In this document: piece after piece, positions 7,001-64,000 of the stretch
Layout: each line of letters opens with the position of its first letter
How positions within the stretch are numbered: position 1 is the stretch's first letter
Notes under the pieces: generated by a model
Told to the model about the DNA's origin: nothing
Database searches by the model: none
The model's input: only the letters and a program-made list of their open reading frames with translations
Source of the DNA: Sipunculus nudus
Taxonomy: Eukaryota; Annelida; Sipuncula; Golfingiida; Sipunculidae
Assembly (NCBI GenBank): GCA_026874595.1
Contig: CM049307.1
Coordinates: 63,208,370-63,272,369 of the forward strand
Reading direction: 5' to 3'
Length of the DNA: 64,000 nt
Position numbers and translations under genes: made by a program

Positions 7001-10000
7001 AAAGTACATGAGCAGGAAACATTCACTGGTGACATCAGAAGTCATAAAAAACAGATTTCTCATAATGTAATTTTCCTATTGGATATTTCAGTGTATGTAA
7101 CATTTAGGACAAAAGAATTAAAACACACCATTCAGTATATATGTGTGTGTGTGTGTGTGTGACACCAGTCTTATCTAGAACAGCTTACACAGTTGGTTTA
7201 AGATCAGCAATATTGTTCTCAATTGCACAGTGTTACTTAAACGCCTGAAATGACGTCAGCAAAATCTGCTGCCAAAAGATAAATTGGGTCATTGTGGTGC
7301 CATTTGTCAAAGTTGCATGTTTAAATAAACCACTTTTCCCTTTGATTGGTGCAGTAAATTTTTGTTTCTGTAATGAGGCTCATTACTTTGAGGGTCATTT
7401 ACTCAGTCACTGAGTAATTTTTCTCAGAAACTGCTATGTCCAACATATAAACCAGCATCAACACTTGAAATGTTTAATATGCACTGGATGTAAGATCTCA
7501 TAAGAAATAATGTCTCTTTAATTTTTTTTTTTCAAATTTATGTGAACTTGGTAATGAAGAAATCAGTGATATACCTGATATTTATTTAAACTTTTTGAGA
7601 CTGATGTTGCTGGTGATATCTATGAGGATATGTTTGTACATAACCCATGGCAGCATTATTTTGAAAATTTATAATATAGCTATATTTTAAATTAGCTCAT
7701 TCACCCTCAGATGAATACTAAGATGGGTCAGAGATCAAGGCCACAGGATCCACTTCTTGAAAAAAAGCTTGTGGGTGTATATAAAGCAAAAATTTTCATC
7801 TCAAAGCTGCCATATTTCACATATGGCTCACCTAACAAGAGTGGAAGAAATCTGTCGATTTTGAGGTATCAAGGTCAGAGGTCAGGGTCACAGAACTGTT
7901 TGGTAAACTACATTTTTCACGTAGTTTATTATATAAACTTGTGCGCCGGGTGCTATTAAAGTGGTGCACTGGTTTTATCTTAAATCCAGGGGCAAAGATC
8001 AGGTGGAACTCGTTGGACCAATTTTGATCAAATTCTCAACCCCTGGACCTTTTCTCCATTAAGTGTAACCAACCTTTGATACCCCCAAAGTTATAGCAGT
8101 ACCCCACCCAACCCTTAAAAAAACTTTAGGTCTACTGGTCCATTACTTGGTTGAAGGGATATCAGTATAGCAATGCATCTCTAGTTTGGCTGTAGATTGT
8201 ATTGGCAGGAGGCAGAAAGCAAAAAGGTTATGAGGCCATTACTCACGGCATTATAGCAGCACATGATGTGTAGATCCCCATCAGCCATGGTGATTGTGAG
8301 ATACCAGCACCTGATGGCTTAGTCATTAAGTTGTTTAATTTATAAGTGTCAGGACCTTGAAAAGTTGCTGGCTGATACAGCAGGAAGGACGGTGCTGATG
8401 GAATGTTTATGGATTATGGCGTCTAGAGGGGTGAGGATAAAAATCACCTCCGAGGGAGAGGGCTGTAAAAACCTTATCATAACCATGATCAGTCTTGTTA
8501 ATGTGTCTAGCTCCTGGGCATGGCGGATCAAGAAATTCCGTTATTGCCTCATGAACATTTTACTGATGAAGAACAGGCAACATATATTTCTCAGAGACTT
8601 TCTCTTTCTGCCTGTGTGTTGATTAAAATGTGTTTTTGATAACCGAGCCTAAATCTGTGAAAAGTGTTTCCCATATATAGAACAAAAATTTCAGGGATTT
8701 GGGAAAAGATTATTTAATGTCTTTGTTTTTGTTTGTTTTCTTCTTTTAACCATCTTAAATTCACAAAAGAAATGTTATAAATTTATGTTATCAGGGTAAC
8801 AGGAATAATAGTCACAGATACATCTCTTTAACCCTACCTGTACACCCCTACATGGTGTTTTCACAGGTATTTAGAAGTGTGTGTTCAGGCCTTGTCCAGA
8901 ACTAGTTGAAATTTTCTCCTGACCACTAAGAACTAGGTTAGACATATATGTTCATAGATAAAACTTTGGTGGAGCAGGGAACTTGTTTACATATTAAACT
9001 ATGCTGCCTCTTCAACTTTTGCATCAATTGTAGTCCTCACATGGCTCACCAAAACTCATGTGGCTTACCAAAATTTGTGTGGCTCACCAAAACTCATGTG
9101 GCTTACCAAAACTTGTGTGGCTTACCAAAATTTCTGTGACTCACCCAAACTCATGTGGCTTACCAAAACTTGTGTGGCTCACCAAAATTTCTATGACTCG
9201 CCAAACCTCATGTGGCTTACCAAAACTTGTGTGGCTCACCAAAACTCATGTGGCTTACCAAAACTTGTGTGGCTCACCAAATCTTGTGTGGCTCACCAAA
9301 ATTCATGAGGCTTACAAAAACTTGTGTGGTATAAATATTGCAGGGCAACTCTTTACATTAATGAAACCATCTAGCCAGTGTTGCATTACTTGTACTGCAT
9401 GTTTAAAAAAGAGTTGTTGCCAAGCCTTGATGAAAGAAAATTTATGATTATCGCTCTAATTTGTGGTTCCATTTACAGGGAAAGCTGACTTTGATGGAAT
9501 AAGTACATATTACAAGTCGCACCCTGACTGTGCCAGAAACTTCTGGTTTCTAGAATTTGTTTTCCTGGTACATGACATGACTTTTGTTAGCAATTTTACA
9601 GTACGCTACATAAGGAATTTGTTGTAATCAGTGACAGGAGAGAGCTGTGTGTGGACATACCAAATATTGTGTGTGTGTGTGTGTGTGGGAGGGCCGGTAA
9701 GAGCAAAGGATCTGTATAATGGTCTGTACAGGTGTTCTTCCCTCAGCCCTTATATTCACACTCCTCTGACCCTGGACCTGTGACCTTTCAGGTGACCTGA
9801 ACCAGTGGTGCCTCCATCTGGCTGTGGGTGTCACATTCAATCAGACATACTTAAATGTAGTGAAAGAGACAGCTCAGAGCTCACCACAAGTTGTGACTTG
9901 TCTGGCTTAGCTCTCTCACAGGAATCACTTTACCTCAGAGGTGTCAGGTGCTACTCTCACATGGCTGCGTGGGTGCCTCAGTTTTCATGACATTTACATG

Positions 10001-19000: not shown

Positions 19001-22000
19001 TCTGAGCTATAGTCATGGTCCATTGTCTGTCGTCTGTCTGTCTGTGGCACGTTTTGAAACCGAAAGACCTAGGAATCCAAAATTCAGCATAATGTTAGAT
19101 GTCCCCAAGATCTCCTACCAAGCCGAAAACTGTGTCTTTTTGACTTTGTTCCTTTGAGAAATTAAGGAAAAACCTCAATTTTTTATTAGCTCAGCTGACT
19201 ATAAGTCATCTGAGCTGTAGTCGTGGTCCATTGTCCGTCGTCCGTCTGTCGTGCCGTCTGTCCGTCCGTAAGACTGGCACGTTTCGACACCATTGGACCT
19301 ACGAATCTGAAATTCGGCATACAGTTAGATGTCCCCAAAATCTCCTACCATGCCGAAAATTGGGTCAATAGGATATATTACTCTATATTGTTCCTATTTA
19401 CATACCAGAAATTAAGTCAGTATTATTGTATCCGCCAAAACAGAGTTTTGCGGATACTATGTTTTCAGCTGGTCGCCGCCGCCGCCACCGCCGCCGCGTA
19501 GGTGTCCGGAGAACTCCTCCATAACCGCTGGGCGGAATTTTCCGAAACCCGGGATTATGTTCGGGTCACATGTGAACTGCTGCACCCCGATTTTGTTTTG
19601 ACCTCTGACCTTTCCTCTGCGCTCTGCGTCCGTTTGTGCGTCTGTTTCCACACATAAACCCACATATCTCGAGAACCGTTTGACCGATCAGGAAAATTTT
19701 TTTGCACAAATGTAGCCCTCGGAGAGCTTTATAACATACACCAACAATGGTGGCGCCACCTGCAACCATGTTTGCACAGTGTCCATCTGTTCGTCTGCCT
19801 TGGGTTAAAATCACTCATATCTCTGCAGTGACTTGACTAATTCACCTGAAATTCGGCATGCGCAAACATCCTGGATAGCTTTTCTGATTTTATGACAGGT
19901 GGCGCCACCTACATTTACGTTGACGCTGCAGACATCCAAGCTCATATCTCGGGAACTGTTTGACCGATCAGGAAAATTCTTTTGCACAAGTGTAGCCCTT
20001 GGAGAGCTTTATAACATACACCAAAAATGGTGGCGCCACCTGCAACCATGTTTGCACAGTGTCCATCTGTTCGTCTGCCTTGGGTTAAAATCACTCATAT
20101 CTCTGCAGTGACTTGACTAATTCACCTGAAATTTGGCATGCGTATACATCCTGGATAGCTTATCTGATTTTATGACAGGTGGCGCCACCTACATTCACGT
20201 TTACGCTGCAGACATCCAAGCTCATATCTCGGGAACCGTTTGACCGATCAGGAAAATTCTTTTGCACAAATGTAGCCCTTGGAGAGCTTTATAACATACA
20301 CCAAAAATGGTGCCGCTACCTGCAACCATGTTTGTACAGTGTCCATCTGTTTGTCTGCCTCGGGTTAAAATCACTCATATCTCTGCAGTGACTTGACTAA
20401 TTCACCTGAAATTTGGCATGCGTATACATCCTGGATAGCTTTTCTGATTTTATGACAGGTGGCGCCATCTACATTCATGTTTACGCTGCAGACATCCAAG
20501 CTCATATCTCAGGAACCGTTTGATTGATCAGGAAAATTTTTTTGCACAAATGTAGCCCTTGGAGAGCTTTATAACATACACAAAAAATGGTGGCGCCACC
20601 TGCAACCATGTTTGCACAGTGTCCAGCTGTTCGTCTGCCTTGGGTTAAAATCACTCATATCTCTGCAGTGGTTTGACTAATTCACCTGAAATTCTGCATG
20701 CTTATACATCCTGGATAGCTTTTCTGATTTTATGACAGGTGGCGCCACCTACAATCAAGTTTACGCTGCAGACATCCAAGCTCATATCTAGGGAACCGTT
20801 TGACCAATTGGGCCAAAAAAGATCTAACATAGCTCTTTATCATACGCTAAACTGGTGGCGCCACCGGCAACCATTTTTGCACAGCGTCTGTCTGTCTGCC
20901 GTGCAATAATGTCACTCATATCTCGGCAGTGGTTTGACATATCTGCCTAAAATTTTTTTATAGAGCTATGTATACAACTTGGACGGCTTTCTGGATTTTT
21001 TGGTAGGTAGCGCAACCTACATACACAATTTGGCTGCAGACATCCATGCTGATATGCAACACTTCACCCGTTCCACTCTGATTTAGGCGGATACAAGTAG
21101 TCGCTTCTCGACTACCCGTATTCTAGTTTAATTTAAAAAAGTTATGGGCCCAAACATAATGGACTTAGTAAAAAAATCAGGAAAGATATTTGGTCACTTA
21201 AGACCAAAAGTGTTAAAGGTAGGGACTTTTTTCAGTAATACAACTTTAATTAATCAAAATTTGATTGTATATCAAAAATTAGATCAAAATCTGTTCAATT
21301 TTTTTATATATTGGCAAAAATATAAAATTGGTACCTTAAATTTTGCCCAACTTTGGCCATGGCACTTTTTTTCCTGTATGTACTGTGGATTTAATTTTCA
21401 CAGCATGTACACATAAAGATTTAATCTGTTAAAATCTGAAATTCGAAAATAAAAGCTGCAAAATTAGGCGAGTTATTGAATTTTTTTTTAGGCTCTTGTT
21501 GTATTATTCCCTAATATTGTCAAGCAGTCCACTTTGATGACTGTAGGTCATTCAGTGCACATCTCTATGCTCCCCAGGCTGTTGACATAATTTTAGATGT
21601 CCCCAAAATCTGCTACCATACCAAAAATTGGGTCATTAGGACTTTGTTCCTTCGAGATATTAAGGAAAAAAAACTCTGTTTTCCATAAAAAAAAGCCATT
21701 GTTACACTTCAAGGCTGCCTAATATCAAAACCACTGATCTGTTTTTGATAGTATTTAGTATTCACATTCTTTTATACAGTTTCTATGAACATACCAAAAA
21801 TTAGGTCAGTATTGGGTATTATTTTGAAGTTATGGGCCAAAACATAATGCAATTTTTTTAAAAATCAGGAAATATATTTACTCACATGAGAATTGCTGAA
21901 CCTAGGGACTTTTTCAGGAATATAACTTTATTTAATCAAGATTCAGTTGTTTACCCAAAATTAGATCTGAATTTTGCAAATTTTTCAAGTTATTAGCATA

Positions 22001-25000
22001 AATAAAAAATTAATACCTTAAATTTTGTCCAACTTTGGCACTGTTGATTTAATTTTCCCAGCATACATGCATAAGGATTTAATCTTTTAAAATCTGAACT
22101 TTCAAAAGAAATTGATTGGAATGAATAGCTTTTATTCATGTTTTCATACACCATGTCAAGTGTTGTTTACATCTAGCCCACCTAGTAGTACAGCCTTCAC
22201 TTGCATTATGTAACCCACCCCAGGCAGCTTACCTTGGCCCAGCTTGGCCACTACTAGCAGGCTTCCCCTTTGCCCTGCACTCATCCCCCCCAGCTGGTGC
22301 ATAAACTAGATGAATGTTATAATTTTTCTGTATTTTATTTTATTCTTGGACATGCTACATTTTAGATTTTGTATTGAACCACCAGGGTTACAATGATTAG
22401 AGTGTACATTTAATTGTGTCCACAAAGCGGTGTATTGCTGTGAAAGTGTGGATGTTCATCAGATAAGTAATTCCTTACTTCAGAAGAGTAAAAACTTCAC
22501 CAGGTGTGAAATTGACTATTAATTAAAACTGGGATAGCAATTAGCACAATGATATTGTTTGTCCCTCATTCAATCAACAGTGTGTATACTTTATTTGAAA
22601 AGATGTTTTATTTTATCAAATTTACTTTTATTTTATTTTGGTGAATAAAATTAAGCATGTCCTGAAAACTCCAATGTGCAAAACTTTTTAATAGTGATTC
22701 AAGGAATATTCTTGTAGATGCCATGTTGTGGCATTATTTTCTTTTATAGAGCTCCTATTTCGGGAACCGTTTGACCGATCAGGCCAAAATTTTGCATGTA
22801 TATAGATCTAACATAGCTCTTTATCATACGCTAAACTGGTGGCGCCACCGGCAACCATTTTTGCACAGCGTCTGTCTGTCTGCCGTGCAATAATGTCACT
22901 CATATCTCGGCAGTGGTTTGACATATCTGCCTAAAATTTTGCAGTTTTATACATCCTGGATAGCTTTCTTGATTTTATGACAGGTGGCACCACCTACATT
23001 CACGTTCACGCTGATGACATCCAAGCTCCTATCTCGGGAACTGTTTGACCGATCAGGCCAAAATTTTCATGTGTATAGATCTAACATAGCTCTTTATCAT
23101 ACACAAAACTGGTGGCACCACCTGCAACCATTTTTGCACAGCGTCTGTCTGTTTGTCTGCCGTGCAATAAAGTCACTCACATCTTGGCAGTTGTTTGACA
23201 TATCTGCCTAAAATTTTGCAGTTTTATACATCCTGGATAGCTTTCTTGATTTTATGACAGGTGGCGCCACCTTTATTCTAGTTTATGCTGCAGACATCCA
23301 AGCTCATATCTCGGGAACCGTTTGAACGATTTGGCCAAAATTTTGCATGTTTATAGATCTCACATAGGTCTTTATCATACACAAAACTGGAGGGGCCACC
23401 TGCAACCATTTTTGCACATTTTGCACAGCATCTGTCTGTTGGTCTGCCGTGGCCTAAAATCACTCATTTCTCTGTAGTGGTTTAACATAACTGCCTAAAA
23501 TTTTGCAGGTTTATACATCCTGGATAGCTTTCTTGATTTTATGACAGGTGGCGCCACCTACATTCTAGTTAACGCTGCACACATCCAAGCTAATATCTCA
23601 GGAACCATTTGACCGATTGGGCCAAAATTGTGCTTGTGTTTAGATCTCACATAGGTCTTTATCATACACAAAACTGCATTTTTGCACAGCGTCTGTCTGT
23701 TTGTCTGCCGTGGGCAAAAATCACTCATATCCATGTAGTGGTTTGACTTTTCTGCCTAAAATTTTGCATATGTATACAACTTGGACAGCTTTCTGGATTT
23801 GTGGTAGGTTGCACAACCTACATACACATTTAGGCTGCAGACATCCATGCTAATATGCAACATACCTCACTCTGTTTCCCCTTGCCACTCAATCCATGCC
23901 TCATTTCACTCTGATTTTGGAAGATACACGTAGTCACTTGTCGGCTACCCAAATTCTAGTTTTTAAAGTTTACACATTTTTTCTCTATTTTTCAGATATA
24001 TAAATACAGACTAAATCTTGGCCTGTTGGTTAATCTGTTTGATGCTTCAGTTGAATGGGTATCTACCATTCTGATGATAAAATTTCCTTTTGTGAATCTC
24101 TTCCCAGTCAGCTGAGCGTCATGACCCATGGGTCACTTGTTTTACTCTGTATATATAATGATTGCAACTTTTGCAACAATTCTAATATTTTAACTTATAT
24201 TTTCAGTTTTTTTATTAAAAATTTATGAAACCTGTCAGAGTATTAGTTTGCAATCATATATTTAGATCTTTACTATAACCAAGTAGGAGGGCCCCTTTCC
24301 TCATAGCTTTTCATATTCTTATATAAATTAAAAACATTACAATAGAATATTTCTACATCCACCTTCAAGCTGCCCTCACTTTTACCTTCTCCGAACCCCA
24401 TCCCAAAGTCAGCCTCAGTAAGCAAGAACAAGATGAATCAGATATATTCATACTTGAATATTTTGTATAACTATTCGTCCATAGGTACCTATGTACATGC
24501 CAGAAATTATGTCAATATTGTGTAATATGTAGATATAGTGGGCATCACAATAATGTACCTTGTCAAGACTAAAGAGATATTGTGTCATACAGTCACATAT
24601 TCATAAATCACTTCATCAGCATAGTTAATCATAACATCATATCTGTCAAATTGAACGCTTGCAGACTACCATACACTTTAGATCCTTCAACAAATAGCCT
24701 TATCATCATTCTACTACTGCTTATTACTGCTGTCATTGCATTCATATTTGCTCAAATATATCACAATTTTCAACCCCTCCTAAATAAATAAAAAATAAAC
24801 CACTATATTTTACTCTATTAATCCATCAGTCAGGTAATTTCATTTATCATTTACTCACATATTACATTACATTCCTTTATAATAGCCCAACATGTCCATG
24901 ATATTCATAAGCTTTATTGACTCGATATAGTATCACAGTGGAGAAACATTTATAGTCCAATCATGATCAGCTGAGCGCCGTGACCCATGGGTCCCTTGTT

Positions 25001-37000: not shown

Positions 37001-40000
37001 TTTGGGTTAGGTTAGACTGGTGCATGAACTTAATAAACTTTCTATCCATATTTGCCATAGTTGCACCAAATATCTCCTTGGCTTGGAATCCTGGCCTTTG
37101 TCAAAAATAGAGATTTCCTACATTTGTATGCACTTAGGACCTTCTCCAACATGAAAGGTGCATTCACATGGCTAAGTACTGTTGTGAAAACATGTTAGTT
37201 TACTGTATTTGTAGACCTCATTCACTGCATTACTTAGGTCAAGAATATAATGAAATCATGAAAAGGCCTGGGTCATTTAACAGTTCACTGCTAGAGAGCC
37301 TTTGCACTTTGTTTGGTGTCCTTTGGAATGAAATGCGTAGAGTTGAAAAGTTCAAGATACAAAGATACGGTACTCAGATTGATTGATTACTGTTGTCAGA
37401 CATTAACCTTAGTCATGTCACTGGAGGACAGCTGTGCATAATTTTGTATATTTTACAGTAATTGGTAGAAAGTGCTTATGTTTAGAAAAATTAATATTCT
37501 AATATTACATTCACTGAGTGACCCAATCTCAGGAAGTGGACATTTTTCATGATATGCCCATTTAAGAGCCTTGTTATTATCCACTGTTACTGGTATCCCT
37601 ACTTTAATACATTTATTTGCTAGTCATGTGATTTATCTTGAAATACTCTAAGCTAAATACATAGTAGATATTTTTATGCTGTATGTTAGATATATTGTTC
37701 ATCCTAAATATAATGCTATATGAAATTATGCTTATTAACTGTGTGAACATATTATTGTCCAGACTAACCAACTTTTACTCCCTGAAACCACACATTGTAA
37801 AAATGATTTGTTCTTGTGTAACAATGCGGAAGATAATTTCTTTTGCAATATGAATTCTTTTTGTTATTATTTTCCACTATGTATAGCTCCTGTAAAGAAA
37901 TCTCCAATTAAGAACTGGCATATTGTTTTTATACAGAATTATTTTGATTATGTTAAATCCAACAGTCACTGCTGTATGCAGTGCTACACATTACATATAG
38001 AGTCACCTGAGTCAGTTATATCACAAATTAAATAATGCAGTTTAACTTCAAATGCCATGATTTATATATCCACATTCTCAGGTTTGCCCCTTACTCGAGG
38101 ATCCATATTTATGAGATGAAAATTGTAATTCTTATTCATATTTGTCACTGTTATAAATTTGTATTTAAGTTCAGTGATTTCAGTCTAGAATATCAATGTA
38201 AACATTTTGTATAAATCTACTAATAAAAAAATTAGTGGTATAGTTATATAGCAGAAACATCAAAGTCCTAGGTTGTCTTTGAAATATGACACAATTCATG
38301 CAAAATAATGAGGTGAAAGTTTATATAAGATTAACCTTTCTCTCTGTTTCAGTGTTCTTTTATACCCAAGTTTTCCATCTACATAGAGACCAGATACGAA
38401 GACAACAATGGGTCTACAGAGAATGTAAGTCAGGTATCATCAGCAAAGCATGTCTGCCAATAAAAACTTGTATCATCAGCAAAACATGTCAGCCAAGAAA
38501 AACATGTTTTATCAACAAAACATGTCAGCCAAGAAAACCATGTATCATCAACAAAACATGTCAGCCAGTAAAAAAATCTATCATCAGCAAAACATGTCAG
38601 CCAATAAAAACATGTATCATCAGCAAAACATGTCAGCCAATAACAAGTGACCCATGGGTCATGACGCTCAGCTGACTGGGAAGAGATTCGCAAAAGAAAA
38701 TTTTATCATCTGAATGGTAGTATATACCCATTCAACTGAAGCATCAAACAGATTAACCAACAGGCCAGGATTGTGTCTGCATTTATATATATTTCAAAAA
38801 TAGAGAAAAAATGCGTAAACTTAAAAAAAAATACAGGTGGCTCCACCAGTCTGCAGAAACTAATTAAAACACTAAATGGTCAATATACATGGAAAGAATC
38901 ATGGTGATCTCTGCTTTAGTTGTTCAGATACTTCAGCTTTTGTATCAAATGTTCCATTATTCTGAGGGATACTTCGGAGTCCTATAGCTTGAAGGATATG
39001 GGAAACAGAGACCTAATTTCAGGTTCCACAGACACTTTTCATGGGCCTCCTTGCATAACAAGAATGAAGATTCTAGGTCCAGTTGTTACTATTTGTACCC
39101 TGTTGACAGATAACCACATCTTAAAAGGTCTCAAAAATAGAGAAAAAAATTCATTAAAAAATTGAAAAAAAATAGAGGTAGCACACCCAGTCTGCAGAAA
39201 CTGATGGAACACCTCATGATCAATATGTATGCGAAAAATCATGACCATCAGTGTTGTAGTTATTGAGATACTGCAGTTTTTGTATCAAATTTTTCATTAT
39301 TCTCGGGGGTATTTTGGAGCCATACAGCTTAAAGGATATGGGTAACAGAGACCTAATTTCAGGTTTCCATGGAGAATTTTCCTGGGTCTCCCTGTGTGTC
39401 AAGAATGAAGATTCTAGGTCCAGTTGTTATGATTTGTGCCCTGTTAACAGATGTTCATATCTTTAAAGGTCTCAAAAATAGAGAAAAAAATTCGTAAAAA
39501 AACCTGAACAAATACAAGTGGTGCCACCAGTCTGCAGAAACTGATGAAACACTCCATGATCAATATCCATGCAAACAATTATGGTGATCTCTGCATTAGT
39601 TGTTCAGATACTTCAGCTTTTGTATCAATTTTTTTCCATTATTCTGAGCTGTACTTTGGAGTGCCATAGCTCAAAGGATATGGGTAACAGAGACCTAATT
39701 TCAGGTTTCCATGGAGACTTTTCATAGGTCTCTCACTGTGTCAAGAATGAAGATTCTAGGTCCAGTCTTTACGATTTGTGCCCTGTTAACAGATGTTCAC
39801 ATTTTTAAAGGTCTCAAAAATAGAGAAAACAATTCATAAAGAATCAAAAAATACAGGTGGCGCCACCAGTCTGCAGAAACTGATGAAACATCTCATGATC
39901 AATATGTATGCCAAAAATCATGACCATCAGTGATGTAGTTAATGAGATATTGAAATTTCTGACTTTTCTGCGGGGTACTTTGGGGCCCCATAGCTCGAAG

Positions 40001-43000
40001 GATATGGGTAACAGAGACCTCATTTCTGGTTTCCAAGGAGATTTTTCATGGACCTCTCAGAATGTCAAGTTACAAATTTCTAGGTCCAGCGGTTACGATT
40101 TGTGCCAGGTTAACGAACGGACGGACAGACAGACAGACGGACAGACAGACGGACGACGGACAAAGGGTGATCGCTATAGTTCAGATGACTTAAAGTCAGC
40201 TGAGCTAAAAATTTAGAGCCATTTTCCCCCTCTGATATCACCAGAGTACCTAGCGTCGAGGACTGCACTGTAATTCTTGATGAGATGCTAGTATTTTGTC
40301 ATTTATGACAAGCCTCGTGGCCTTGGTTTTAACTCAACATATTAGTAAATTTCTCTGCATGTTTGTTGAATTACTGACCACATCATACAAGCATGGCTCT
40401 CACATGTTTCCGGATGAAAACCAACTTGTACTCAATACAGGAAATGACTCATTACCACAGAGACAGAGTTTCAGTTTAGTTTGTGAGTTCACAATATAAT
40501 CTTTTGTGTTAGATCATCACTCAAAGCCTAATATTAAGATTATCAGCTGTTTACCATGATATCAGTGCAACAGGATGGCAGTACATACCCCTGAATGGCT
40601 TGTATCATAACTCAAGTACGACCTATCAGTCCAGTATATAGGTCTCCTGAGTCATGTAATCACAGCTACTTACAGGTAACATCTTCTTATGTTGTGTTGG
40701 TGACAGGTGATGGAGCTGGAGGAGGACGAGCTGGGTAACAGAGAGGTTGTGTTCTTGGATATCGCTACAGACGACTGTCCTGAGAAATACTACAAAGAGG
40801 AGGAGGTAACAAATCAAATAAAAATTTATTAACAAACAAATTTATAACTGATATATATTAAACACAAAAATCCAAATCCAATTTGAAATATATAAAATAC
40901 AACCTCAGAGTTAATTTGTTTAGATAAAATCTCTGAAATTTTTAAAACTTACTCTTACTCAGTTTTCACTTGGTGTAAACCTCATCCATATATGTAACAT
41001 TAAAAAAAACAATAGATAGGAAATTTTGTAAATCAGGCTCTCTTCAGTTGAATGTAATTCTTGTTACAGGATCCAAAAAAGTTCACATCCAAAAAGACTG
41101 GCAGGGGACCATTACAAGAGGGATGGAGGGTAAGTTTGTAATTGATCTGTTTTACAACACTTGTGCCCTCCATGGATGCTAAAGCAAACAGTCTCATATC
41201 AAAATGAAGATTTTCCAGTCAGTGTACCGTATTTTTGTTTAACTGACTTATCTTTTTTGTTTTGCCTAGAAAACCCTTGATGAAGTGCCAGTGGTTGTTA
41301 CATTTCATCAATAAATCAATACTGGTCTATGTTGACACAGATAGCTGTCAGCTGCTTGTGGAACCCCTTCAAGCATGACTGTATTGCCAACTTATTTATT
41401 TACCATAGGCTTGGGGCAACTTATTTATTGTATCCCCAGACAAAGTCAGGATACTATGAATTCATGGCGGTCCCACTGCCGCCGCCGAAAAAACTTGTGA
41501 GTGGGATAACTCAAAAAATATTTCACTGATCTTTTTCAAACTTTACATTTGTATAGATATAGGTAAGGGGACGAAGCCTATTTAAAATGGGGTCATGACC
41601 TATGCTGGGAGAGTGACCTTGACCTTGAATAGGTCCATTTTTGCTGAAAATAACACAAATTCTTAAATATCTCAAGTAAGCTTGCACAGACTGGTCGCAA
41701 AAATCAAGGTGACCGAAGATCTTTGATAGCCTTGTGATATAGCGGAAACAGGTGGCGCCACCTATTATCCTTTTCTTGTTTTTACGCCTTTTAATACCCC
41801 TATAATTGCCACATTACAGTACTGTAAGCATTATAAGTCAGAAACTAATGGACAGACTTCTTTCATATGCACATGTAGAGAGATGGGTTATGGGATGAGG
41901 TCTATTTACATTTGGGTCATGACCTTTACCATGAGAGTGGCCTTGACCTTTAATGTGTCCATATTTGGTGAAAATCACACACCTCTTATGATATTTCCAG
42001 TGTTGATAGCCATATGGATTTCAAACGTGACTTATGTATGGCCCACCACTAAAGTAAGAACCCTATAGGTTTTAGGGTCATGAGGTCAAAGGTCAAGGTC
42101 ACAGGACTCGCATCTTAAAAGATACTGTGGATGCATTTTAAGCCAAACTTTCATCCCAGGTCTCCATCTTGAATATATAGCTCACTTGCCAATAGTGGAT
42201 GATCCATATCAATTTTTGGGTCACAAGGTCAAGGCCAAAGGAGCTATCTGTCAATAAATTAGTTTCTGGATGATAATTCCTGCTTTTATTGATGTATTGA
42301 TTTCAAACTTGACTTATATATGTCTTATTGAAAAAGCAAGACTCCAATTGATTTTGGGGTCATGAGGTCAAAGGTCAAGGTCACAGGACACATCTTTAAA
42401 AAGATTGTGGATGCATTTTCAGCCAAACAATTCATCTCAGATCTTTCATCTTGCACATATAGTTCACCTGCCAAGAGTGGAAGACCCCTATCAATTTTGA
42501 GGTCACAACATCAAAGGTGAAGGTCACAGGAGCCATCTGTCCAAAAATTAGTTTCTGGATGATAATTCCTGTTTTTATTGATGTATGGATTTCAAACTTG
42601 ACTTGTATTTGTCCCATTGGAAAAGCAAGACCTGAATTGATTTTGGGGTCATGAGGTCAAAGGTCAAGGTCACAGGACACATATTTAAAAAGATGTGGAT
42701 GCATTTTCTGCCAAACATTTCATCTCGGATCTTTCATCTTGCACATAGAGTTCACCTGCCCAGAGAAAAGAACCCTATCAATTTTGAGGTCACAAGGTCA
42801 AAGGTGAAGGTCACAGGAGCCATCTGTCCAAAAATTAGTTTCTGGATGATAATTCCTGCTTTTATTGATGTATAGATTTCAGACTTGACTTGTATATGTC
42901 GTATTGGAAAAGCAAGACCCGAATTGATTTTGGGGTCATGAGGTCAAAGGTCAAGGTCACAGGACACATCTTTAAAAAGATCAAGGTCACAGGACCAACA

Positions 43001-46000
43001 TCTTCAAAAAGATTGTGATTGATAGATGGAAGAAACAATAATTGCTTGCCAAGTTTCAGTATATGCTGCAAAAAATGGGGGCCTATTCTTAAAGGAGGGG
43101 GCCCTACTATGTCTGGGGATACTGTGGCACCTGCGGTGCCAAGAAATGTCGAGTTTACCATAGGCTTGGGGCAACTTATTTATTTACCAAAGGCTGGGGG
43201 ATATAATTAGGACTGTAAGGAACATTCAGACTCTGGATATCCAAGCACAAATATTGGCCTTCTGCAGTATCACTGGTTGGGGATTCTGTTGTGAAATCGT
43301 ATTTCAGCAAACAGACATAGAATTTGCAAAGAATAAACATAAAATCTCTTACTAGACTGAACCTTATCTTATATTTGGTGTCTATTAATTTGCTGTGTCT
43401 TCATTGGTGCTGTGTAAGAGCCATATACTTGATACTGAATCAGTTTTAATGCAAAATATTATGTATATTGACATTAACAAGCAGTAGCGTTATTTGGTTA
43501 TCTCTTGATATGAATTTTATAAGGCAAAATAGTTCGCAAACTGATTTGTGTATTTGTTGTATTATGAATTGGTTCCTTTAATGAATTGCCTTGTGATACA
43601 CTGCCACAGTTAGGAATTATTCCCATCATATTTGTGTCTATTAGCTGTCATTGCTGAATCCAACACTATAAATATACACACACAAATACACAGAGAAGTA
43701 AAACCAAATGAGTTTTTGCCCAGGCACAACTTTGTTATTTTAAAACAGTTGAAGGTATGCAAGTTATAGAAATAGATATAGGTGCATTTCAAATTTTTTG
43801 TTTCCAGGACACAAGCAAGCCCATTATGTGTTCATACAAGGTGGTTAAAGTGCGTTGTGACTTGTGGGGAGTTCAGGGCAGGGTGGAGCAGTTTTCTCAT
43901 AGGGTAAGTCCTTGTCCTCATGACACTTAGTATAAAGCTGGTAGCTTGTTCGTCCTGTTCCAGACTGTGTCAGATATATGCTCACATCCTAAAATATAAC
44001 ATAAAGACTTGACTCATAATCTCAGTAATATTTATACCCATTCTCTTACTGTAATATTTACTGCCACTTATATATTCATAATTGAAACCTTTTCTATATA
44101 ATTATGTGATTTCTGCGTATTCTGTATACATATTAATGAGCTCTACCTGCAGATTATAAATTACTTGTAAGCTTTGTGCATTATTTTAAGACTAGAAATC
44201 TGCATTCTAAGGAATGCAATCCTCTGCCATGGGGGGGGGGGGGGGGGGGTCCTTATTTTGAGATGCTCCCAAAACAGTGTTTGCATTCACTTATTCAGCC
44301 CATATTCCCAGGTTCATTTATACAAAAGTGATTGTACATTTGTGAATATATGTCAGATCCACACCAAACTCTAATGGATTCTTCATTGGCCCATTCCCAA
44401 AATGCCCTATAATTTTCATGAGGTTCGATTCATTTTTGCATGAGATGGTGTGAACAACGTAAAAAACAACATGAACAGGGCTGAATGCATACCCTCCTGG
44501 CAATTATGGCAATGATGTATGACAGTCAGACACTGCAACTGTTTATGCTAACGTAGGGTAAGGCCCCACTGAGCAAATTAAAAATAGCCAGTTTACTGCA
44601 AGATAGGGTGTCACAGCTTGTTGAAATATATGCATATTAAAATAAATGTGAGCTGAATGGATTAATATGTTAACTTGTGGCACCAGCGTTATAACCTCTC
44701 CTGTTCAGTGATTACATGATAGATATTTAATATAAACATTTTTAGCTCAGCTGACTGAAAGTCATCTGAGCTATAGCAATCACTCTTTGTCCGTCGTCCG
44801 TCTGTCTGTCTGTCTGTCCGTCTGTCTGTCCGTTAACCAGGCACAAATCCTAACCGCTAGAACTGGAATCTTCTTACTTGACATCCTGGGAGGTCCATGA
44901 AAAATCTCCTTGGAAACCAGAAATTAGGTCTCTGTTACCCATATCCTTCGAGCTATTGGGCCCCAAAGTACCCCCAAGAAAAGTCCAAAATTTCATACAA
45001 AAACTTCAATATCTCATTAACTACTTGACTGATGGTCATGATTTTTGGCATACATATTGATCATGAGAGGTTCCATCAGTTCCTGCAGACTGGTGGCGCA
45101 ACCTGTATTTTTCGATTTTTTACGAATTTTTTTCTCTATTTTTGAGACCTTTAAAAATGTGAACATCTGTTAACAAGGCACAAATCGTAATGACTGGACT
45201 TAGAATCTTCATTCTCAACACTGAGAGACCTATGAAAAGTCTCCATGGAAACCAGAAATTAGGTCTCTGTTACCCATATCCTTCCAGCTATGGGGCCCCA
45301 AACTACCCCCCAGAAAAATAAAAAATTTCAAACAAAAACTTCAATTTCTCATTAAATACTTGACTAATGGTCATGATTTTTGTCATACATATTGATCATG
45401 AGATGTTCCATCACTTCCTGCAGACTGGTGGCGCCACCTGTATCGTTCAATTTTTTACGAATTTTTTTCTCTATTTTTGAGACCTTTCAAAATGTAAACA
45501 TCTGTTAACAAGGCACAAATCGTAAAGACTGGACCTAGAATCTTCATTCTTGACACACTGAGAGACCTATGAAAAGTCTCCATGGAAACCAGAAATTAGG
45601 TCTCTGTTACCCATATTCTTCGAGCTATGGAGCCCCAAAGTACCCCCAAGAAAAGTAAAAAATTTCATACAAAAACTTCAATATCTCATTAACTACTTGA
45701 CTGATGGTCATGATTTGTGGCATAACTATTGATCATGAGATGTGTCATCACTTCCTGCAGACTGGTGGTGCCACCTTTATTGTTCGTTTTTTACGATTTT
45801 TTCCTCTATTTTTAAGACCTTTAAGGATGCTGTCATCTGTTAGCATGGCACAAATCGTAACGACTGGACCTAGAATCTTCATTCTTGACACACTGAGAGG
45901 TCCATGAAAAATATCCTTTGAAAGCAGATCTGTTAACCATATCCTTCGAGCTATGGGGCCCCAAAGTACCCCCCCCCCCCAGAGTAGTCAAAAATTTCAT

Positions 46001-49000
46001 ACAAAAACTTCAATATCTCAATAACTACATCACTGATGGTCATGATTTTTGGCATACATATTGATTATGAAATGTTCCATCAGTTCCTGCAGACTTGTGG
46101 CGCCACCTGTATTGTTTGATTTTTTACGATTTTTTCCTCTATTTTTGAGACCTTAAAGGATGCTGTCATCTGTTAACATGGCACAAATCATAACGACTGG
46201 ACCTAGAATCTTCATTCTCGACACACTAGAAGACCTATGAAAAGTCTCCATGGAAACCAGAAATTAGGTCTCTGTTACCCATATCCTTCGAGCAATGAGG
46301 CCCCAAAGTACCCCCCCAGAGTAGTCAAAAATTTCATACAAAAACTTCAATATCTCAATAACTACATCACTGATGGTCATGATTTTTGGCATACATATTG
46401 ATTATGAGATGTTCCATCAGTTCCTGCAGACTGGTGGCGCCACCTATGTTATCTATCAAGAGGGTACAAATTGCAACAACTGGACCTAGAAACTTCATTC
46501 TTGTCATGCAAGGAGGCCCATGAAGAGTGCCTGTGGAAACTTGAAATTAGGTCTCTGTTAACCATATCCTTCTAGCTATAGGACTCTGAAGTATCCCTCA
46601 GAATAATGGACAATTTGATACAAAAGCTGAAGTATCTGAACAACTAATACGGAGATCATCATGATTCTTTGCATGGATATTGACCATTAAGTGTTTTTAG
46701 CTCAGCTGATTGTAAGTCATCTAAAGTATCCCTCAGAATAATGGACAATTTGATACAAAAGCTCAAGTATCTAAACAACTATTGTAGTGATCACCATGAT
46801 TCTTTGCATGGATATTGATCATGCAATGTGTCATCAGTTTCTGCAGTATGGTGGCGCCACCTGTATTTTTTTTATTTTTATGAATTTTTTTCTCTTTTTG
46901 AGACCTCATAAGATGCGGTCATCTGTTAACATGGCACAAATCGTAACAACTGGACCTAGAATCTGCTCTCTTGACATGCTGAGAGGCCCATGAAAAGTTT
47001 CCTTAAAAACTTGAAATTAGGTCTCTGTTACCCATAACCTCTGAGCTATGGGGATCCGAAGTACCCCCCAGAATAATGGAAAATTTGATACAAAAGCTCA
47101 AGTATCTGAACAATTATTTTATTGATCACCATGATTCTTTGCATGGATATTGATCATGAAATGTTTCATCAGTTTCTGCATTCTGGTGGCGCCACCTGTA
47201 TTTTTTCAATTTTTTCGCTCAGCTGACTGAAAGTCATCTGAGCTGTAGGGATCATCTTTTGTCCGTCGTCCGTCCGGCCATCCAGGCGTCTGTCTGTTAA
47301 CAGGGCACAAATCGTAACCGCTAGACCGGGAATCTTCTTACTTGAAATCCTGGGAGGTCTATGGAAATTCTCCTTGTGAACCTGAAATTAGGTCACTGTG
47401 ACCTATATTCTTCGAGCTATGGGGTTCTGAAGTACCCCCCAGAATAATGCAAAATTTAATACAAAAGCTCAAGTATCTGAACAACTAATGCATTAATCAC
47501 CATGATTCTTTGCATGGATATTGATCATTGAGTGTTTCATCAATTTCTGGAGATTGGTGGCGCCACCTATTTTTTTTTATTTTTTACGATTTTTTTTCTC
47601 TACTTTTGTGATCTTTAAACATTTGGTCATCTGTAAACAGGGCACAAATCATAATGACTGGACCTAGAATCTTCTGTCCTCACCTCCAGGGAAGCCCATA
47701 AAAGGTCTACATGGAAACCCGAAATAAGGTCCCTGTTACCCATATTCTGTGAGCTATGGGGCTCTGAAGTACCCCCCCCCCCCCCCGAATAAAGATTTGG
47801 TCATATATTAACAGGGCACAAATCATAATGACAGGACCTAGAATCTTCTGTCCTCACCTCCAGGGAAGCCCATAAAAGGTCTACATGGAAACCCGAAATA
47901 AGGTCCCTGTTACCCATATCCTTCATGCTCTGGGGCTCCGAAGTACTCCCCAGAATAAAGATTTGGTCATCTGTTAACAGAGCACAAATTATAATGACTT
48001 GACCTAGAATCTCCTTTCTTGATATGCTGGGAGGCCCCGGAAAAGTCTCCTTGTGCACCTGAAATTACATCTCTGTTACCCATATCCTTCATCCTATGCG
48101 GCTTTGAAATACCCCCCAGAATAAACATTTGGATTTGTTAACAGGGCACAAATCATAATAACTGGACCTAGAATTTTATTTTTTTACATGCTGGGAGACC
48201 CCTGAAAAGTCCTTGTAAACCTTGAAAATAGGTGTCTGTTACCCATATCCTTCATGCTACAGAGCTCCATTGTACCCCAATGAATATTGGATGATTTTAT
48301 ACAAAAGGTCAAGTTTGGAAAAAGTATTTCAATCAAATTTGACATTCAGATGATAAAATTACTTTTGTCAATGTCTTCCTGGTCAGCTGAGCGTCATGAC
48401 CCCTGGGTCACTTGTTAAGAAATAGTTTAATTTTCATCAGCCATTTTAAGACAAAATCTCTATCAGTAATATTTTCAGCTTTTTTTAAAGTTCTCTAAAC
48501 TAATAATCAAGCTGATTTGTTTGTATTTTGTGCGATTCATACTTCTGAACATACTTTTATCTTTAGTCTCTCTTTCTGTATTTTCCAGGCGGTGAGAGAC
48601 ATTTTATTGCTGGGGCACAGGCAAGCATTTACCTGGATGGATGAATGGCATGGTAAGTACATGGGCACAGTCAAACATTTCCATAGGTCGTACATGTATG
48701 TACTGTCAGTCTTTCAGGCAGTATTATAGGCAGCTATTCAGATTTATAAGTGAGGTTATTGGAAACACAAAGATGGACATTTTCTTTATACTGGTTGCCT
48801 TATACAGCGATGCTGGCATGTAAGTGCAACCTTCTGATTCAGTATCTATTACATCCTGGGGTGATCTCAAGTCCACAAAGAGATAAATAAAATGTTATAT
48901 TGGCTGACTATAAAAGGTCATTACAGCACAATAGGATGATACATCTACCATGAGATGTGAGGCATTATCTCTTCCTGACAAGGAGGGATTGATCACTATT

Positions 49001-58700: not shown

Positions 58701-59576
58701 AATTTTATATCCTGTAGAAATAAATCAGTACAAACTTTCTTCCTTAATCCCAGTTGATGAAAATTTCTGTGCTGGATCATTCTGACTGTTCTGGGTACAC
58801 AGTTAATTCTGTTGTGCGGTATATGAAGGGAAGCTCAAATGTAAACATAATACTTGGCACATTGTCTATTTATGTAATCTTTTTTAATCATAACAATATA
58901 TGTTACTCTAAACTATTAACATTCTTACTGTATTAGTTTCTATTAAGCAAAGACTATACTTGATCGAGATATATATACAACTCAAAAATTATAGTTTTTT
59001 TCATTATCATTATGAAATTTAAAACTGGTTGTTAACATTTTAGGTACCACGCATTTAATACTACGCCACACTTTAATACTACTAAATATAGCATTCAATA
59101 TATCTTTCTGTGCAATATTTCAATGAAATAATATGCTCAAAACATATTCCACCACATTTGCAAATATACCTTTAATAGCACAAATTTTGATTTTCTGACA
59201 ACAGTAAATAGTAGAAAACCATGTAAACATTATTTAATACTTAAGAAAAACTCATACAAAAGGTTGTGAAAAAAAATAAAACATAGCAGATCCTGCAATG
59301 ATTGAGCAACTTCTGAGGAAGCACCAAAAATTGCATAAGGAATGATTACTTGGATATTGCATCAGCCTTTACATTTACATAGCAAAGTGGAATGGCCTTA
59401 CAATGTGGTCACCATTTGAGTATATTGTCCAAAGTGAATCAGGAATGACATAGTGCAGGGGAACTCGAAATATATACATATATATTTATATATAACAATA
59501 GCTTCCCCCTTGATACATGCTCATGGGCCAACAGTCAGCTTGAACACAATAGCTACGATCATGCAGGTGCTGCCTT

Positions 59577-59672
59577 CTATGCCATGGTGCCAAACACGGG
59601 GTTGTGACGGCAGATGGAAGGGCCATGCTCATCGTAGTCAGCCTTAGTGTGGCACACCTGGTAAAACTCAGG
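59577..59672 (-). CDS. ACTR3: Arp3 distal last exon
   Basis: On the minus strand the acceptor is GCTGTTTCAG and the exon begins in phase 0. The 31 residues are [20 protein letters not shown] then [11 protein letters not shown], followed by TAG. This version is closer to the animal consensus ([17 protein letters not shown]) than the proximal one. It differs from that exon at 7 of 31 residues and, by my count, 32 of 96 bases, many of them silent. Confidence 0.93.
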
Positions 59673-62600
59673 CTGAAACAGCACAACAAACAAACTAAAA
59701 AACATGCAAAATAAAAACATTAAAAAACACACTCAGCCAAGGTGTCAACTGTGTGGGATTGAAGTTAGTTGGGGAAGAGGATAAAACTATTAGAAACAGA
59801 ATAAGATGAACTGTAAAGGATGATTCTGCTTTGTATCTTGAATGCAAGTAAGCATTGAGTGGAGCTTGTTAAGGTCAGACTTGTGCCTGACTTGTGCTGA
59901 AGTCAAAGCTCTTTGTCACTTCAAAATATAGTTAAATTTATACTCAGAACCAGCTTCTGATGGCAAGCCTTGGGCATGTCAAATTCTTTCAGTCTGTCCC
60001 CTAGATTAGAGGGGCGGGGGGGGGGGGGGTGTTACAGTATTGGTCCACATATCACATGTTCTGGGTCCCATAAATTGTGACAGGCTATGATTTCAGTAGA
60101 ATATCCACCAATTGGGACGAATACAAGGGCAAGTTGCATTAGTTAAAACGACAAGGTATGACACTATTTCCAAAACTGTAAAACATCATTAACAAACAGA
60201 CATCAGTATAAAAATTAATATATAATTGGACAACATCAACTACCATTGATTCTAAAAGAAGCCATGCACATCTTAATAAGACATTGGACACTGACTATGA
60301 GATTATGAGACATATTTGTCTGCTCCATCATTTAGTTATAAATATGTATATATCTGAAGTTTATATTTGTGCATATTTGGAGCTACATCATTACACAGAC
60401 ACTGAACCAGGAGCATGACCACCAGAAGCATAAACATTCCTCATTCTGAAATTTCCCCTACCCGAGTATCACATGCCTTACTTTTATCAAATTCATAGTT
60501 ATAATATCTCATATCAGAATTATAATAAGTGAAATATAAATATTATAAATATACCATTAATTTCAAACATTTCAAAAGTATCATGTGACAAATTCAAAAT
60601 GTTTCATTAGGTATAAAGATATGCAAGTCGTGGTCATGTTGCAGGTTGGACCTTTTACATATACATGTAAAAACCACAAAATGTTTTAGAGTTAATCCCA
60701 CAAAACTTTCTGGTTAAGAGTTAAGTGAATAAATCTGCTGAACATACAAGCTTGAATTGAAGAAATTGGCCTTATAAGATAATTGTTCTGGTATTCAAGC
60801 CCAGACTGCTGTTGCTGAGAGAACACCAGTTCTATAATAATCATCACTTGAATTCAGAAAGGGAGATACCTGTAAGCAGTGATTCTGAAACTGCAAAATT
60901 TTCAGGATGTTTTATTTCTTTTATTCAAGGACTGTTTAATCATCCAGCTTAGTTAAACTGAAATTCCAGTATTGACCTGTATTTTAATACTTTTTGTGAT
61001 GCTGTTTGATGGTATGATGCTATTATTTATAATCAATTTGCTGGTTATTTATGTATCCACACAGGCACAAGTGTAAATATTGCCTGAAACACCCTAATTA
61101 CCAATAAAAACCTCCCTTACAATTTCAGGAACAGAGAAGAATAAAGTTACGTTACTGGTTAAGTTGCATAATTCACAAGTTAGTATTTACAAAGTTTGAG
61201 CAATATAACAAACAAGGATTTTGTGCCAAAGGCTAATTAGTTCATTCCGTCTTATTTGAATGTGCTCAGAAAAAAACAAAATAATGCTGAATAAAAGCAA
61301 AACAATGACTTCTTCACAGTAATCAACTCAGGACAAAATGAATGGTCCACTGTTGGCCAATAAATAAAAGACAACACATCTAAAGCTTAAAACAGGACAG
61401 AAATCATGACATCAACCCAAACAGAGGGTTGTGTCTGACTATACTGGGTCCATATTCATCATAATCAGCTCGTGTGTGGCACACTTTGTAGAATTCCGGC
61501 TGAAAGATACAAAACAATTATACACCGTACCCTATTAATAAATTTAGAGAGCAAAAATTAAGATACTGAAGTTCTATTTTTTTTATACAGAATACAGAGT
61601 TGGTATATGGTTCAGCCTTTCAGGCATCAGGTAAATTTCATTTAGGAGTTGTATAATTAATTAAGCAGGGTTTTATATATTTTAATATTCTCTTCAAATG
61701 ATTATTAAATTCTATCATTTCCATACATTCAAAGTATGATGCACCATGTTTGTGAAAGGTGCATTAATGATCGATAAAAGGATATGCACTGGTAATAAGA
61801 CATTTTCCCAATGAATCAAATATCATATAAATTTGGTAAAAGTCATTTGGGATTATTTACCCTGTTGAAACTTTTGCATAAATGAGATGAAAGTCAATGT
61901 TTAATGAATGCAAGGTGAACCATCCAAAGCTTTACAACCCCTTGTATAATTTGTTAATCAGGCAAAGAAATATGGTTCCTGGAAAACGAGAAATTTCTAT
62001 GTGATACCTTATATCAAGTACTACAAAAATCACACCGGGTTGTCCATAAGTACATTTGTTCACCATGAAACATTCTTATCGCAATGACAGCAGGATTATG
62101 CTGAAAGAGGAAAAATAAGAAGTACAGAGATACCTTTTACCAACTGGTCTGTCTGTTTCCCTGTCTTTTTCTTTTGTCTGTTTCTCTATGCATTTCTGTC
62201 TCTGACTTTTCCTCTGCCTCTTTCCATCACTGTCTCTGTGTCTGTCCCCTTATCTGTCTCTGTTACTCTGTCTCTCTTTTACTCCTATATACACACTTTC
62301 ACAAACTCACATGAAAACATTCTGTATGAAATTGAACCAGGAGTCTATTTTAAACTTACCGTCGAAGCGAGCATACTCCCACCGAACCAGACTGCGTAGC
62401 GCTGCATGTGGTGTGAAATCACCTGGACATCAATGGGTTTAGGCTGAAACACAAGACAAGGTCTTCTGTTAGGTATAATACACAACAGGATTCAATATTT
62501 AACCTAAAATCACAAATTTAGATTCTGTTATTATTCTGTAATATAAAATCTGAATTTGCAAGAATTGATAACATATGTATGTTACAGTCAATGGGTAAAA

Positions 62601-63986
62601 TAAGTCAATTTGTAAATCTCCTGAAATTTTCAGTCAATTTACAAATTGCCTGGTTCACTCAGGGATTTTTTGAATGACTGAAATGTTCAGGTATTTTACA
62701 AATTGACTGAAGTTTCAGTCAGTTTATTTGACAGATTGACTGAAAGGAAAAAAGAATGAAATACTATTGTTATATAATAACAAAGATTTAAATGGTATTT
62801 TATTTATTTCATATATCTTACTCTTACAAATATTTATATATTTTTACAACGTATCATTTCACAGTTCAATGTTTTATATAATTAAAAGCATCAATTTTGC
62901 TTACTTCTGGTTACTGCAGAAATAATGATGTAATCATATGAAATGTAAATATTATACTGTCTCAGGGATGCAATTTCCTTTCGCACTTTGGGTGGGGTAT
63001 CTCACTCCCTAAATGTGGGAAAATTATTAAATTTTTCCTTCAAAGTTTCAGCGATTTTGAAGTAATTTTGGTAAAAAATAATGGGGAATATTCTTGCTTC
63101 GGAAAACAGCAACATGTAAAAGTGTTTGACTTAAAATAATGTCCCCTGAGAACCCTTAACCCCGCCCCCCCCCCCCCATTCTTTGATCAACTGCCAGTTA
63201 TTTCGCAATAAAACTGCAAGTCCTAGTTCTTGTTTGAATTCTCAAAATCTGCGTGAATTCAATAATTTGTGCTTTAATACTTGGTTTCCATAATGTCATG
63301 GTAACAAGTGAATCATGTAATAATATCAGTCATCATTTTCGGTCTAGTTATATCTGAAAGATTACACTTTGTTAATATTTGAAAAAACTGTCATATATTT
63401 TTGTAAATATTTATGAACTGAAAATTGAGCCTAGTTTTGTAGCAAAATTACATCTTATTTAACAATATGGGGGTGGAGGGAAGGAGGTAATATGGTGTCA
63501 GTCATGGCTGATTAATTCCCTTGTTAAGCTCTGGTGAAACAAGGTACAGGCACACTGTGTGGTAAGCATAACAGTCGAGCCACTGATGTATTACCTGTGT
63601 ATATGTTCTCAACTTCATTGTGTATATATGTATTAACAAACCACAAATTTCATTCTCTTTCCACAAATTTAAATACCCCATGATGTACATTTTGCGCAAA
63701 AGCCACAAAATTTTAGGTCCACGATATTATCTGAATCTACAGTATATCAATTATCCAAGAAAAACCACACACACCTTTGATCCTAAATGACATTTTAATA
63801 ACCATAGGTTAAATCCCCAGCAATATTCACATTGTAGAACTCTGAGCTTTTGAATCTGACCTTGATTCGACCTCCACTGAGTTCTTCACTCAACTTGAGA
63901 CGGGCATCCACAGCCCTCTTGACATCTCTCTGTAAACGACGACCAAAGTCACGGAACATTGTGGACCCTCCTGACAACACGACGTT
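59577..63986 (-). CDS. ACTR3: Actin-related protein 3 (Arp3), C-terminal exons, two alternative ends
   Basis: Arp3 is a subunit of the Arp2/3 complex, which nucleates branched actin filaments in the cytoplasm; Arp2 and Arp3 mimic the first two actins of the daughter filament. The visible exons on the minus strand are 63861-63986 and 62360-62443, followed by either 61404-61499 or 59577-59672. Joined, they give the last 101 residues of a protein that is about 418 residues long in relatives. Blocks are [20 protein letters not shown] (actin-fold nucleotide-site region), [30 protein letters not shown] and GGSMLAST. Each last exon supplies a complete PEFY...RHNP-FG-M tail. The 5' exons and promoter lie beyond 64000. 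The gene converges with the PITPNC1-like gene. The identification is secure; the two-ended structure is directly visible, but use of both ends needs transcripts. Confidence 0.95.
59673..61403 (-). other. Interval between the two Arp3 last exons
   Basis: This is the presumed 3' UTR of the proximal isoform followed by intron. Two AATAAA motifs on the minus strand (60911-60916 and 60920-60925) lie about 480 nt past the proximal stop and are good poly(A) candidates. A 14-base G run lies at 60016-60029. Nothing else was recognised. Confidence 0.55.
60911..60925 (-). terminator. Candidate poly(A) signals of the proximal Arp3 isoform
   Basis: The minus strand reads GAATAAAAGAAATAAAAC, two overlapping-spaced AATAAA hexamers about 480 nt after the stop at 61404. 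Confidence 0.4.
61404..61499 (-). CDS. ACTR3: Arp3 proximal last exon
   Basis: On the minus strand the acceptor is GTATCTTTCAG and the exon starts in phase 0. The 31 residues are [20 protein letters not shown] then [11 protein letters not shown], followed by TGA. All core positions of the Arp3 tail are kept, with Lys for Gln, Arg for Lys, Val for Cys and Leu for Val compared with the distal exon. It has no frameshift or internal stop, so it does not look like a dead duplicate. Confidence 0.93.
61500..62359 (-). other. Arp3 intron with GACAGA-rich tract
   Basis: The intron is 860 nt long. From about 62140 to 62285 the transcript strand is purine-rich with repeated GACAGA/AGAGACAG phrases, starting about 75 nt after the donor at 62359. 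It may be a degenerate simple repeat or may influence splice choice. Confidence 0.55.
62360..62443 (-). CDS. ACTR3: Arp3 penultimate exon
   Basis: On the minus strand the acceptor is GTGTTTCAG and the donor GTAAGT. The 28 codons in phase 0 read [20 protein letters not shown] then [17 protein letters not shown] is the actin-family signature near the C-terminus. This exon donates to either last exon. Confidence 0.96.
62444..63860 (-). other. Arp3 intron
   Basis: A 14-bp inverted repeat, AGTCAATTTGTAAA at 62603-62616 and its inverse at 62695-62708, brackets further CAATTT/AAATTG pairs and could be a tiny palindromic repeat. A 13-base C run lies at 63165-63177. No other feature was seen. Confidence 0.55.
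63861..63986 (-). CDS. ACTR3: Arp3 exon, first visible
   Basis: On the minus strand the acceptor is TTGGTTTTCAG and the donor GTCAGA. The 42 codons in phase 0 read [20 protein letters not shown], then [20 protein letters not shown] and [10 protein letters not shown] is the actin-fold phosphate/adenosine-site loop. The open frame reads past the donor into intron, giving a false KVRFKSSEF extension. Confidence 0.96.
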
Positions 63987-64000
63987 CTGAAAACCAAGAA

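Follow-up and report, generated by a model that had tools for sequence, protein, structure and literature searches.

Our analysis of the window, a stretch of 64,000 nucleotides from Sipunculus nudus (assembly GCA_026874595.1, contig CM049307.1, positions 63,208,370 to 63,272,369), found an Arp3 gene that carries two intact homologous last exons in tandem, and a complete second Arp3 gene on another chromosome that carries the same pair in the same order. Arp3 is the core of the apparatus that assembles branched actin networks. It is probable, in our judgement, that the two exons are tandem alternative last exons through which the autoinhibitory tail of the Arp2/3 complex is exchanged; we infer from the DNA that both are spliced, that a regulator is involved and that the swap has a biochemical effect. 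Splicing of exon 10 to the proximal exon (A), with cleavage and polyadenylation before the distal exon (B), would yield Arp3 with tail A, and skipping of A with splicing of exon 10 to B would yield Arp3 with tail B. Because each exon has its own stop, the two tails would be mutually exclusive in the protein. The pair most likely predates an old duplication of the entire gene and has been retained in both copies. The conserved (U)GCAUG sites near exon B point to an RBFOX-type factor that may help to choose the exon.

The gene is read on the minus strand. Across window positions 59000-64000, exon 9 lies at 63861-63986 (42 residues, with AG/GT borders and a homologous exon in the second gene) and exon 10 at 62360-62443 (28 residues), with a GTAAGT donor that is common to both last exons. 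Exon 10 ends in ...GGSMLAST, and both exon A (61404-61499) and exon B (59577-59672) join onto it in phase 0; each has 31 codons plus a stop, and canonical AG acceptors with a pyrimidine tract stand before A and B (ttttgtatctttcag, gttgtgctgtttcag). Upstream of the last exons are nine exons with AG/GT borders (E2-E10), found partly in DNA beyond the window, and a first exon (MAGRMPAVVIDNGTG, followed by a GT donor) whose start is at C2:63282524, about 10 kb upstream of the window end, C2 being the contig that holds the window. The product is 418 residues long with either tail, the same as bovine Arp3. The spliced form with tail A aligns end to end with bovine Arp3 (PDB 1k8k_A, residues 1-418, E = 5e-258), the five PDB sequences that match it at E <= 1e-100 are all Arp3, and the best PDB match of the tail is again the tail of 1k8k_A. 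The full-length match to Arp3 and not to actin, the Arp3 length and the C-terminal extension identify the gene, just as two adjacent homologous exons that agree in phase, each equipped with its own acceptor and stop, identify a tandem exon duplication. A comparison of the two exons of the window gene shows 7 changed residues out of 31 and 30 changed coding bases out of 93 (32%), with silent differences in a further 14 codons. These counts bear out the preliminary description, which had reported two intact alternative last exons of equal length and phase that keep the Arp3 tail and differ at seven residues and about a third of their bases, many of them silently.

When tail B was used to search the genome (1.43 Gb in 153 contigs), four places on two chromosomes matched, namely the two window exons and two sites on contig C15 (six candidates scored), and a search with tail A led to the same four places (five candidates scored); with neither query was a further tail copy found in the genome. 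The C15 locus is a complete second Arp3 gene (C15:48582494-48616679, start at C15:48616679) that encodes 418 residues with either tail. As in the window gene, its A-type last exon is followed by the B-type (31 residues each), and an AG acceptor precedes exon A in both genes. The protein bodies of the two genes are identical at 342 of 372 residues (about 92%). A 403-residue Arp3 query lacking exon 1 produced 83 matches from 93 scored candidates, and outside the two loci their identity was 27-61%, in keeping with actins and other Arps. The ARPC2 and ARPC5 families matched one locus each in the genome, which gives no sign that the whole complex was duplicated. The two neighbourhoods (103 kb of C2, window included, and 100 kb of C15) were compared to see whether adjacent genes are paired as well, as in ohnologs from a whole-genome duplication. 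Of 2,651 ORFs with 25 or more residues, 356 had a match; with more-repeated ORFs filtered out, those with at most one match in C2 and at most two in C15 were the Arp3 exons (on both strands) and repeat-like pieces, many of them broken by stops.

Several other features were recorded along the way. Clusters of actin-like genes lie at C2:20.70-20.74 Mb, C9:4.60-4.65 Mb, C9:13.04-13.15 Mb and C6:66.66-66.70 Mb, with many unbroken frames of about 330 codons and some that contain stops. The sole match in a viral scan was a distant one, an actin-like C-terminus at positions 5001-5162 of a viral contig (IMGVR_UViG_3300031760_000488) that is 37% identical to Arp3 at about residues 360-412. The window itself also holds long-period tandem arrays with units of about 280-340 bases (19663-20805, 22750-23856, 38794-40114, 42070-42980 and 44832-46445), those at 19663 and 22750 having a related unit in common, and two minisatellites (9042-9329 and 38434-38643, with 19/57-base and 36-base units) with open frames of more than 110 codons. 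A Pfam scan of six of the nine window ORFs of at least 110 residues recognised no gene and returned one weak match below the cut-off.

The segment exchanged by the two exons corresponds to residues 388-418 in bovine numbering (exon residues 1-31) and includes the autoinhibitory tail. The Arp3 tail has been described as holding the Arp2/3 complex inactive, its tip being pinned in the barbed-end groove by L445 and F446 in yeast; the L445D/F446D change appears to release the tip, and in yeasts the activity of Arp2/3 is altered when the tail is lost or modified (PMC4947185). The mammalian pin pair is V413/F414, which is contacted by W195 of Arpin (PMC8810855), and the C-helices of Coro7 and N-WASP displace the tail (PMC12592476). 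A hydrophobic pair is present here in both genes, as Leu-Phe in tail A and Val-Phe in tail B. The yeast pair being L445/F446 and the mammalian pair V413/F414, exon A therefore has a yeast-type Leu at the pin position and exon B a mammalian-type Val. Five differences between the exon types are fixed in both genes: at 397 (Lys in B, Arg in A), 403 (His, Tyr), 408 (Cys, Val), 413 (Val, Leu) and 416 (Thr or Ala in B, Thr in the window gene; Leu in A). Exon A thus has Leu at both 413 and 416, and exon B combines V413 with a small or polar residue at 416. Tail B differs from bovine Arp3 at five and six of 31 residues and tail A at eight and nine; since tail B is the nearer of the two and canonical-like, tail A looks derived. 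Our guess, based on side-chain size and on Leu against Thr or Ala at 416, is that tail A, which has Leu at both of these positions (413 and 416), is the one held more tightly in the groove.

Fifty bases on each side of 11 exons (E2-E10, A and B) were compared between the two genes, with 110 mismatched pairs as a control. The upstream flank is clearly conserved at exon B only, with a score of 25 against 2-9 for the ten other exons and a maximum of 13 among the mismatched pairs (z = 6.6, or 4.4 without the last 14 bases). The downstream flank of B, with a score of 10, is the highest of the 11 exons (the others scored 1-6) and equals the maximum of the mismatched pairs (z = 3.8, or 2.3 without the first six bases); this weak conservation after the stop could be due to chance or to a 3' UTR element. 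Exon A has no flank conserved between the genes. The stretch that aligns between the two genes around exon B (59560-59709, minus strand; 79% over 151 columns, blastn E = 4e-31) comprises 37 intron bases, the exon and 17 bases after its stop. It contains an RBFOX-type UGCAUG upstream of B (59703-59708, minus strand), found at the same place in the C15 gene, and another just after the stop (59560-59565, minus strand), which reads AGCAUG in the C15 gene and whose GCAUG may be a 3' UTR element. A third GCAUG lies inside the exon on the Glu-His-Gly codons; the C15 gene shares it, and the need to encode these residues may be what has preserved it. The three sites (upstream of, inside and downstream of B) have identical spacing, 79 and 64 bases, in both genes.

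TGCATG occurs in 2 of 22 upstream flanks, both of exon B, and GCATG in three upstream flanks (B twice and E6 of the C15 gene once) and in 2 of 22 downstream flanks, both again of B. The window as a whole shows no excess of TGCATG (57 copies against 57.0 expected), and the other copies between exon 10 and B, one in the window gene and three in the C15 gene, are at unshared places, so that the evidence for the motif is its conserved position at B. The (U)GCAUG motif of RBFOX proteins is described as acting by position, in that an exon tends to be skipped when the site lies upstream of it or within it, and to be included when the site lies downstream (PMC10551640). The present sites resemble those of RBFOX-regulated exons in lying near an exon, but they surround a last exon and the downstream one would fall in the 3' UTR. 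An Rbfox-like RRM exon is encoded in the genome (78% over 41 residues, query residues 35-75). From exon 10 onward on the plus strand of the gene, the best non-exon blastn match pairs 20 bases of the B upstream flank, containing TTGCATG, with C15:48583651-48583670 (95%, E = 0.08), a piece that also has TTGCATG and sits in the A-B interval of the C15 gene; there the last G of the C2 TTGCATG stands opposite the same base.

Neither gene has a GT donor at the stop of exon A (tcatga/tttctg in the window, acatga/taccag in C15, the slash marking the end of the exon). AATAAA is found between A and B in both genes, in the window at 478 and 487 bases after the stop of A (60911-60925, minus strand; two candidate poly(A) signals for exon A by consensus match only) and in the C15 gene at 187, 557 and 732 bases. 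After exon B the stretch scanned contains no AATAAA in either gene, and only the variants ATTAAA and TATAAA. This pattern is weak evidence because the DNA is A+T-rich.

The alternative that survives best supposes that both last exons are used but that the 3' UTR and poly(A) site that accompany each are what matters, through mRNA stability, localisation or amount, the two tails being equivalent and kept alike by purifying selection. The 3' UTR necessarily changes with the choice of exon, a few bases beyond the stop of B can be aligned between the genes (weakly, by the mismatched-pair control), and most of the residue differences between A and B are conservative. However, four residues are A- or B-specific in both genes even though the silent sites of the gene body are saturated, and A keeps Leu at 413 and 416 where B has Val at 413 and a small or polar residue at 416, while equivalent tails would be expected to mix these residues. 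We therefore consider this explanation unlikely, if still worth weighing, and a swap of the autoinhibitory tail the better account.

Since dS was mostly not computable, dN/dS between the tails is unusable, and we compared counts with a neutral simulation in which the same numbers of transitions and transversions were placed at random (20,000 runs). dS could not be computed in four of seven comparisons (gene body, B-B, A-B within C2, and A of C15 against B of C2); the NG86 values for the others were 0.93 (A-A), 1.40 (A-B within C15) and 0.98 (A of C2 against B of C15). For A against B, none of the 20,000 simulations was as alike in protein and open, the neutral mean being 18.2 residue changes with a stop in 67% of runs, and chance likeness of the two exons is thereby excluded. 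Between the genes, exon A shows 16 base changes and 3 residue changes (neutral mean about 11) and exon B 22 base changes and 3 residue changes (neutral mean about 14); stops arose in 31-54% of runs, and 0 of 20,000 were as conserved and open in either direction. Judged by these counts, all four last exons are under purifying selection, and two paralogous genes have retained both types intact over the long term. The same data make it very improbable that one exon, presumably the derived-looking A, is a relic that is rarely or never spliced. Its lack of a conserved flank would fit such a relic, but A is open and in phase behind AG acceptors in both genes, and its 3 residue changes among 16 base changes were reached by no neutral simulation.

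The preliminary description had read the divergence of the two exons as an old duplication under protein-level selection, neither a fresh copy nor a pseudogene, and this reading is supported by the occurrence of the same A-then-B pair in a second Arp3 gene on another chromosome and by the purifying selection on all four last exons. The pseudogene and fresh-copy explanations are rejected. Between the genes A shares 28 of 31 residues with A, and B 28 of 31 with B; A and B share 24 of 31 in all four combinations. Over the three possible groupings of the four sequences, informative residues divide 4:0:0 and informative bases 9:1:2, the first figure in each case counting those that pair the exons by type (A-A and B-B); third codon positions alone give a weak 2:1:1. 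Because both residues and bases group by type between the genes, the exon duplication most likely predates the duplication of the whole gene. From the comparison of the gene bodies the latter is itself old, since they differ at 30 of 372 residues (dN 0.053), dS is not computable and identity at third positions is 49%. Over its 31 codons, exon A has diverged less at silent sites (NG86 dS 0.93) than the gene body or exon B in the comparison of the two genes.

This low silent divergence of A, for which the body and B give no computable value, and the weak third-position signal of such short exons are what could be said for a separate duplication of the last exon in each gene followed by convergence, or for gene conversion of the pair between the genes. 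We give that history even less weight than a relic exon: grouping by type is favoured by every one of the four informative residues and by 9 of 12 informative bases, the A-then-B order is the same in both genes, and the B intron flank is common to both B exons, while the 110 mismatched upstream pairs, A-B pairs included, come nowhere near it; at exon B, with 76% DNA identity between the genes, recent conversion is unlikely. Least probable of all is an artefact of this single assembly, either an assembly error or a C15 locus that is the other haplotype of the same gene, given that the 32% base difference between the two window exons is far above a collapse error. A haplotype is rejected because the two loci lie on contigs of 98 and 64 Mb, with different intron lengths and a gene body saturated at its silent sites.

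We file the exon pair as a further case of the known tandem duplicated last exons, with an unusually informative target. Tandem duplicated exon substitutions have been described in human and fly sets as rare and mostly ancient, with 236 human events of which 77 are C-terminal (Cerdan-Velez et al. 2022, PMC9741552). The Arp3 pair resembles them, the 3' exons of tropomyosin being the actin-linked case, in its homologous tandem exons and in proteins that are alike except for a short homologous segment. It differs in being kept in two paralogous genes and in that the swapped segment contains a known autoinhibitory switch; Arp3 or ACTR3 has no occurrence in the main text of that survey. Among the best matches in the open-licence literature, titles and abstract openings contain no report of alternative last exons of Arp3. 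The work on the Arp3 tail switch (PMC4947185, PMC8810855, PMC12592476) concerns the same segment, including the pin residues V413/F414 (L445/F446 in yeast), but in its relevant sections it deals with one tail per species, with artificial mutants and with bound regulators, whereas here there are two natural tails, with Val or Leu at the pin.

Mammalian Arp2/3 iso-complexes are formed with Arp3 or Arp3B, ARPC1A or B and ARPC5 or 5L, human Arp3 and Arp3B being 91% identical (PMC8193582). Diversity of the complex through alternative forms of its subunits, Arp3 included, is common to both systems. In mammals, however, the forms come from separate genes, and the difference studied in the relevant part of that work is Met293, whereas here each of two genes offers two tails. 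As the preliminary description proposed, two tails could give two kinds of Arp2/3 complex. More speculatively, and with rather less than even confidence, two Arp3 genes with two tails each might give four Arp3 proteins, with splicing setting Arp2/3 autoinhibition in an animal lineage through residues 413 and 416 by means of an ancient RBFOX-type switch at exon B.

Two old tails that selection has kept may give the cell two settings of its actin-branching machine. The Arp3 tail is a known brake on branched actin nucleation, and if two natural tails that differ at the pin residue have been kept through a gene duplication, cells may choose the strength of this brake by splicing. If true, this would add a layer of splicing to the iso-complex idea, which for Arp3 rests on separate genes.
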